From Croceicoccus sp. Ery15 (lineage in GTDB: Bacteria > Pseudomonadota > Alphaproteobacteria > Sphingomonadales > Sphingomonadaceae), in the NCBI RefSeq assembly GCF_020985305.1, contig NZ_CP087588.1, positions 3,471,501 through 3,535,500 of the forward strand: a stretch of DNA of 64,000 bases, read 5' to 3'. The notes under the pieces are model-generated. The model had not been told where the DNA came from and searched no databases. It saw nothing but the letters and a program-made list of their open reading frames with translations. A program made the position numbers and the translations under genes. Shown piece by piece: positions 24,864 to 25,057 of the stretch; position 1 is the stretch's first letter; each line of letters starts with the position of its first letter.

Positions 24864-24917
24864 AGCGAGTCCGGAAAGACACAGTCGCAAAGCGAGTCCG
24901 GAAAGACACAGTCGCAA
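24864..24917. repeat. Exact 27-bp tandem duplication upstream of ccrM
   Basis: Two identical head-to-tail 27-bp units (24864-24890 and 24891-24917) begin AGCGAGTCCGG and end CAGTCGCAA. Each contains one GAGTC, a GANTC site. The duplication lies between the SDR stop and the ccrM leader, in non-coding DNA. Confidence 0.9.
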
Positions 24918-25057
24918 GATGATGAGTCCGCCCGTGCCGCACGGACTCTATATCTTGGGGCGGGCGCGAAACCGCTGGCGACATCGCGGCCCCGCCACCG
25001 GGCGCGGAACGGATTCGCCGCGACGATCGGCGCTTGACGGCGAGTCCCCGTGGATTC
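24867..25057 (+). promoter_or_regulatory. Cluster of seven GANTC (CcrM) sites before ccrM
   Basis: GANTC occurs at 24867, 24894, 24924, 24944, 25012, 25042 and 25053 (start of each 5-mer: GAGTC, GAGTC, GAGTC, GACTC, GATTC, GAGTC, GATTC). Random sequence would give about one per 256 bp, so seven in 191 bp is a strong enrichment. In Caulobacter, GANTC sites in the ccrM promoter make transcription depend on methylation state, so autoregulation is the natural reading here. Confidence 0.7.

Follow-up and report, generated by a model that had tools for sequence, protein, structure and literature searches.

In the Alphaproteobacteria, cell-cycle DNA methylation is mainly the work of CcrM, and the locus described here, in which GANTC sites crowd in front of the gene for the GANTC methylase, raises the question of whether the enzyme reads its own methylation to set its own level. 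The locus lies in a 64-kb stretch (positions 3471501–3535500; hereafter the window) of a single-contig 3.63-Mb Croceicoccus genome (3,633,189 bases). The gene product is identified as a CcrM-type methylase by NCBIfam NF050803 (E 8.2e-183, 607 bits), a score under the model cut-off of 830, which was reached by none of 387 genomes and which the Caulobacter vibrioides control also failed to reach. The closest named CcrM records for the window protein are from Croceicoccus (92% and lower), in a comparison that may omit the window's own record. Open reading frames and family matches give the gene order rnhB, short-chain oxidoreductase, ccrM, folP. In the genome stretches examined, GC skew has no clear single switch and no 1-kb bin holds four DnaA boxes. 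Papers cited below by PMC number are represented by excerpts, and what is said of them holds for those excerpts.

The GANTC cluster ahead of ccrM

GANTC sites start at 24867, 24894, 24924, 24944, 25012, 25042, and 25053, and the last of the seven ends at 25057, 56 bases ahead of the ccrM ATG (25114). They are set among the following features, where A to F denote positions recurrent in the family.

24864–24917, + strand: exact 27-bp tandem duplication (copies 24864–24890 and 24891–24917) holding two GAGTC (24867, 24894)
24894–24898, + strand: GANTC site A
24915–24957, no strand: imperfect inverted repeat (16-nt arms, 81%), with B and C as its inner ends
24924–24928, + strand: GANTC site B, 30 bp after A
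24944–24948, + strand: GANTC site C, 20 bp after B
25012–25016, + strand: GATTC, 22 bp upstream of TTGAC and 30 bp before E, outside the conserved family columns
25034–25039, + strand: predicted −35 element, TTGACG
25042–25046, + strand: GANTC site E, inside the −35/−10 spacer
25053–25057, + strand: GANTC site F, whose last C is the first base of the predicted −10 element
25057–25062, + strand: predicted −10 element, CACAAG (commonest in the family, CACCCT; class pattern, CAnnnT)
25068–25076, + strand: DnaA-type box TTATCCACA, at the predicted transcription start
25114–26259, + strand: ccrM, 381 aa, GANTC adenine methylase (open reading frame and family match)

A site count over 24867–25057 confirms the seven sites in 191 bp that an earlier note on this DNA had reported; the chance rate that the note set against them, about one per 256 bp, is too high, because GANTC is depleted here (92 sites in the window, where shuffled sequence averages 283). 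The density scan covered 2,064,000 of the 3,633,189 bases (57%, with 7,500 of these masked) and found 2715 sites, or 1.315 per kb. No other 191-bp run in the 2.06 Mb examined is as dense as the ccrM cluster; one run of six sites and three of five come next. When the 2715 sites were placed at random 2000 times, the peak per 191 bp was three in 15 placements, four in 1486, five in 459, six in 39, and seven in 1. The 27-bp duplication is exact, and two of the seven sites are therefore one site copied: the second copy (24894) aligns with conserved site A and the first (24867) is private. No tandem repeat of this kind occurs in the other 112 of the 113 family loci.

Other GANTC-rich stretches were noted. 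In the stretch 44940–45965, four sites fall in 46 bp (44944–44989) beside two consecutive transposase-like frames (45016–45402 and 45456–45962) that by eye resemble an IS630-type element, and nearly the same letters recur around genome position 339,500. Two further stretches, almost identical to each other and with four GANTC apiece, lie at genome positions 2528284 and 215811 ahead of similar frames (genes under 200 aa), each followed by a small open reading frame named AlpA-like by eye; these stretches are possibly mobile-element copies.

Conservation and phasing in the family

CcrM matches were obtained in 14/14 genus genomes searched (one, G012, weak or partial only) and in 119/119 family genomes searched. 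Together with 80 named loci, the genus and family matches gave 125 loci whose CcrM shares 68% identity or more, reduced to 113 family loci by dropping 12 exact upstream duplicates; five near-duplicates remain. In the 250 bp before ccrM these 113 loci carry between 2 and 11 GANTC (mean 6.28), whereas the rest of the same loci averages 0.262 per 250 bp; in 112 of them no other 250-bp stretch of the locus is as dense, and in one there is a tie. Removal of the near-duplicates (108 loci) barely alters this (6.27 against 0.264; densest in 107, one tie). The earlier note had proposed to drop its idea if the sites were missing or at background density in relatives; they are clustered. The GANTC cluster is real, old and, judged by its conservation, functional.

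Alignment of the 113 loci gives six recurrent positions: A (105 loci), B (96), C (99), D (67), E (86, a count that pools two neighboring alignment columns), and F (104). The window carries A, B, C, E, and F, and D is absent; in class sequences, a GANTC placed like the window's GATTC at 25012, some 20 bp ahead of TTGAC, is seen by eye to recur. The alignments for spacing, N base, flanks, folding, and promoter, and both sequence models, rest on an earlier set of 95 family loci. In that set A and B are 29 (63 loci) or 30 bases (13) apart, B and C 20 (68) or 19 (7), C and D mostly 19 (44/50), and E and F 11 (54) or 10 (15). Pair distances in the 113 loci peak at 9–11, 19–20, 29–30, 39, and 49; the six conserved positions have fixed spacings near multiples of ten bases. 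The 161 extra GANTC that fall elsewhere than in these columns, in 79 loci, are in phase with the conserved ones (R 0.48 at a period of 10.5 bp, 0.40 at 10 bp), as are 124 distances taken from distinct patterns (R 0.44 and 0.35, respectively), in a test weakened by shared ancestry and with a null of 2000 uniform sets scored at period 10 only (maximum R 0.30).

The middle base of GANTC behaves differently at the two ends of the array. At the promoter sites N varies while GANTC stays (E: GAGTC 41, GACTC 25, GAATC 5; F: GACTC 77, GATTC 7, GAATC 5), as expected if the ability to be methylated is selected for; farther upstream N is almost constant (A 86/87, B 81/81, C 83/85, D 57/59), a pattern that does not fit such selection (all counts from the 95-locus set). 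Selection for methylation sites in the ccrM promoter is well supported. To that extent the earlier note is borne out; the multi-step switch that it proposed, with hemimethylation of several sites altering promoter activity, is hypothetical.

Sites A to D also bear conserved flanks in the 95-locus set (e.g., GCCACACC, AACATCTTGTG, and TTTCGTTC), and of the 72 loci in that set that have A, B, and C, 71 were aligned over the module. Searched with a model of A to D, the window's own genome gave 2/2 matches at ccrM (best 150 of 411 candidates) and the family gave 140/140, in 91 of 99 genomes and starting 67–298 bp from the ccrM match (best 42 candidates per genome, with stricter filters); among these best-ranked candidates, the predicted upstream module is found only at ccrM. 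A dyad of the same kind occurs in 7 of 87 class genomes, against 0.03 in shuffles. In the window, a short-chain oxidoreductase gene (23922–24845) separates rnhB from ccrM; in several family relatives (e.g., L012, L109, L131) the array seems by eye to follow the rnhB end directly, and in class loci outside the family (e.g., L148, L155, L162) the dyad GAGTC appears, also by eye, to overlap or abut the rnhB 3′ end. Given this overlap, the array element may have begun at the end of a coding sequence.

The predicted promoter, DnaA, and CtrA

Sites E and F overlap a predicted σ70-like promoter. TTGAC is invariant in 74 aligned family promoters (part of the 89 F-bearing loci of the 95-locus set, and chosen for having F), in which F starts 19 bases after the first T of TTGAC. 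TTGAC-N14-GANTC occurs in 104 of 113 family loci, with N13 or N15 spacers in none and nine loci lacking the N14 core; outside the family it occurs in 39 of 87 class loci, with N15 in four. A separation of 17 bases between the −35 and −10 hexamers places the last C of F at the start of the −10 element. The base after the F GANTC is A in 143/143 core-bearing loci, and the last base of the hexamer is T in 72/104 family and 39/39 other loci; this A and T are bases that the TTGAC-N14-GANTC search leaves unconstrained, and they are the two most conserved positions of the −10 hexamer. The window's own −10 element is weak and without the final T. A generic σ70 and terminator scan of 24700–25300 found nothing; its rule needs the final T of the −10 element and 9/12 matches, and this promoter has neither. 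Both strands of the 2.064 Mb examined contain five occurrences of TTGAC-N14-GANTC, one of which is the ccrM promoter, and a core-promoter sequence model has its one match in the genome at ccrM (best 150 of 619 candidates). A repeat that contains TTGAC-GANTC-GANTC with a spacing unlike that of the ccrM promoter was seen at genome positions 334748 (+), 1681590 (−), and 3377393 (−).

The wider class was surveyed through 191 alphaproteobacterial genomes, 159 of which have a CcrM match at E 0.001, some of them weak. The class set comprises 87 of the 156 matching non-family genomes (27 returned by the search and 60 picked before their upstream DNA was seen); the other 69, with partial and contig-end matches among them, were left out. 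The 300 bp upstream of ccrM hold a mean of 3.5 GANTC in this set, against 1.04 in shuffles. TTGAC-GANTC-GANTC is found in 35 of 87 genomes (0.0 in shuffles) and TTGAC-N12-16-GANTC in 44 (0.3 in shuffles), leaving 43 without even a loosely spaced F site; 11 have zero GANTC in the 300 bp.

A DnaA-type box (TTATNCACA, either strand) is present at 69 of 113 family loci and absent from the remaining 44. In 50 family loci it starts four bases after F, hence over the predicted transcription start; the orientation of the window's box is opposite to that in most relatives compared. CtrA recognizes TTAA-N7-TTAA, a consensus with no full match in the 64-kb window and three one-mismatch matches, the nearest at 30604. 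CtrA control of the window's ccrM was rejected on the ground that no full site occurs in the window; in the 300 bp upstream of ccrM, a full site occurs in 5 of 87 class genomes. Sinorhizobium ccrM is bound and activated by CtrA (PMC4433202), and control of ccrM by DnaA is described mainly where ccrM has no CtrA sites (PMC2877005).

Proposed control of ccrM and its known counterparts

We infer that this promoter is sensitive to methylation and in which direction, where its transcript starts, that DnaA binds there, and that some reader senses the methylation state. On balance we lean towards a replication-reset negative feedback, in which a conserved promoter array that can be read by its methylation would tell CcrM the GANTC state of its own gene; the enzyme probably adjusts its level by reading the marks that it makes. 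In such an array E and F would lie inside the core promoter, with F fused to the −10 element, and A to D would lie upstream on nearly the same helix face around the dyad. Full methylation of the core sites would keep the ccrM promoter low; passage of the fork would leave it hemimethylated and let it open; and newly made CcrM would shut it again, with DnaA at the predicted start as a second tie to replication initiation. Candidate readers are GcrA, RNA polymerase itself, or a dyad-binding factor. The direction of the methylation effect is borrowed from Caulobacter, whose ccrM is CtrA-activated. In Caulobacter, ccrM is described as being transcribed from hemimethylated DNA only (PMC2217572). Against the silencing direction, methylation activates Caulobacter ftsZ and mipZ (PMC3708114). 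Also speaking against the feedback array are the lack of a full CtrA site in the window, the nearly fixed N base at A to D, the 43 class genomes with no F site and the 11 with no GANTC at all upstream, the nine family loci without the N14 core, the 44 without a DnaA box, and the weak −10 element of the window. The gene ccrM itself is named as most probably affected by GANTC methylation, by citation of a 1995 paper (PMC3973325). The table of conserved unmethylated GANTC sites in PMC4752239 names a MarR gene, not ccrM, and the excerpt of PMC8116508 counts GANTC before ctrA, not ccrM.

Methylation could instead switch ccrM on, if methylated E and F recruited GcrA together with σ70 and the resulting positive feedback were damped by CcrM proteolysis. 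We regard this GcrA-activated promoter as unlikely, while giving it more weight than any other alternative discussed here. GcrA is encoded in the genome (PF07750 above cut-off, in two stretches within 150037–150639), it favors methylated GANTC and recruits RNA polymerase (PMC3667746), and the weak predicted −10 element is in keeping with an activated promoter. It is also already known from PMC7987155 that CcrM is a predicted core GcrA target, with a relatively high regulation probability in many of 13 species (one per order), the regulation seeming to be lost in Caulobacterales and Parvularculales. Against it, the extended GcrA motif YGAKTCK (PMC7987155) fits 0/7 window sites and shows no enrichment ahead of ccrM in the family, where it matches 151 of 718 upstream sites as compared with 164 of 642 in the remainder of the loci; it fits 92 of 305 upstream sites in the class, and at F 12 of 104 sites in the family and 13 of 39 in the class. 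The E/F core is, moreover, about equally common in class genomes with a GcrA match (28 of 68) and without one (7 of 19; Fisher p 0.80), absence being profile-based: in the 19 GcrA-negative genomes Pfam gave nothing above cut-off even at E up to 10, and a second profile, built from 19 GcrA proteins, gave a best E of 0.078 while recovering 3/3 positive controls. One of the seven core-bearing genomes without a match (G210) has a family member with GcrA (G316), so GcrA could be missed. Given 0/7 sites fitting YGAKTCK and the core in 7 of 19 GcrA-negative genomes, GcrA may not be the only reader of the promoter; it may read this promoter here, and the promoter architecture may not depend on it.

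A dedicated transcription factor on the A–D dyad, for which GANTC would be part of the operator and methylation incidental, we hold to be improbable. The conserved flanks and the nearly fixed N and orientation at A to D point to a protein site more than to methylation alone, and the dyad symmetry yields model matches on both strands; this explanation is opposed by the varying N at E and F, by the phasing of the 161 extra sites with the conserved ones, and by the lack of a second module copy among the best-ranked matches in the genome and family, which would be unusual for a general regulator. Much further down the scale is a structured RNA (a leader or small RNA) whose stems happen to hold GAGTC and GACTC. 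Inverted repeats around B and C are as such an RNA would have them, but the dyad is upstream of the predicted promoter, RNAalifold on 71 sequences returned five pairs, all invariant and none (0/5) with compensatory change, and Rfam gave no match up to E 5 in 24700–25400. The RNA was rejected for this want of covariation and of an Rfam match, and the invariant pairs together with the Rfam result lead us to read the dyad as a DNA element. Rfam searches of eight relatives gave only microRNA families under gathering scores, all in one locus (L123) and away from the ccrM upstream region. Chance with local duplication is the least credible explanation of all: it accounts for one of the seven sites through the 27-bp duplication, and is countered by conservation of the cluster in 113 loci, by the core outside the family, and by the single random placement in 2000 that reached seven.

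A bolder reading is offered tentatively and with a good deal of doubt: the ancestral alphaproteobacterial ccrM promoter would be a self-reading methylation sensor acting on RNA polymerase opening without GcrA, grown into a DnaA-gated phased array in Sphingomonadales. With F fused to the −10 element, its methylated adenines would fall near −15 on the top strand and −13 on the bottom strand and would there act directly on promoter opening by RNA polymerase, GcrA being unneeded; the helically phased array of the Sphingomonadales would average methylation over its many sites, and DnaA bound where transcription starts would gate it further. A predicted −10 element fused to the methylation site of the gene's own enzyme occurs well beyond one family, and also where GcrA was not found. 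It offers a small, concrete DNA target for asking by what means a bacterium gauges the methylation of its DNA, and whether adenine methylation can gate RNA polymerase directly. The literature searched, which covered few subscription papers, gave no account of a phased array or of a GANTC fused to a −10 element.

A close counterpart is the Caulobacter crescentus ccrM promoter, known to us by description, which likewise contains target sites of the methylase that it drives. It uses CtrA, whereas the promoter described here has, with no full CtrA site in the window, a DnaA-type box, two sites in a TTGAC/−10 promoter, and an upstream dyad array. Dam-dependent switches such as pap and agn43 also have several methylation sites in one regulatory region, where a DNA-binding protein may compete; the methylase gene is not known to be a target of theirs, and here the methylase gene itself is. 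Of these switches, agn43 is also named in PMC4752239. In C. crescentus, excerpts of two papers tie ccrM expression to replication via methylation state (PMC2217572; PMC3973325). The σ70 promoters controlled by GcrA and CcrM (mipZ, ctrA P1, ftsZ) resemble the present one in having GANTC near or within the core promoter and GcrA in the genome; they differ from it in that here YGAKTCK fits no window site, many sites are phased, and the core is found also in genomes without detectable GcrA. The window's ccrM shares with those predicted to be under DnaA control (PMC2877005) a DnaA-type box and the lack of a full CtrA site; the excerpt gives motif presence and no architecture, whereas here the box covers the predicted start, four bases after F in 50 loci.
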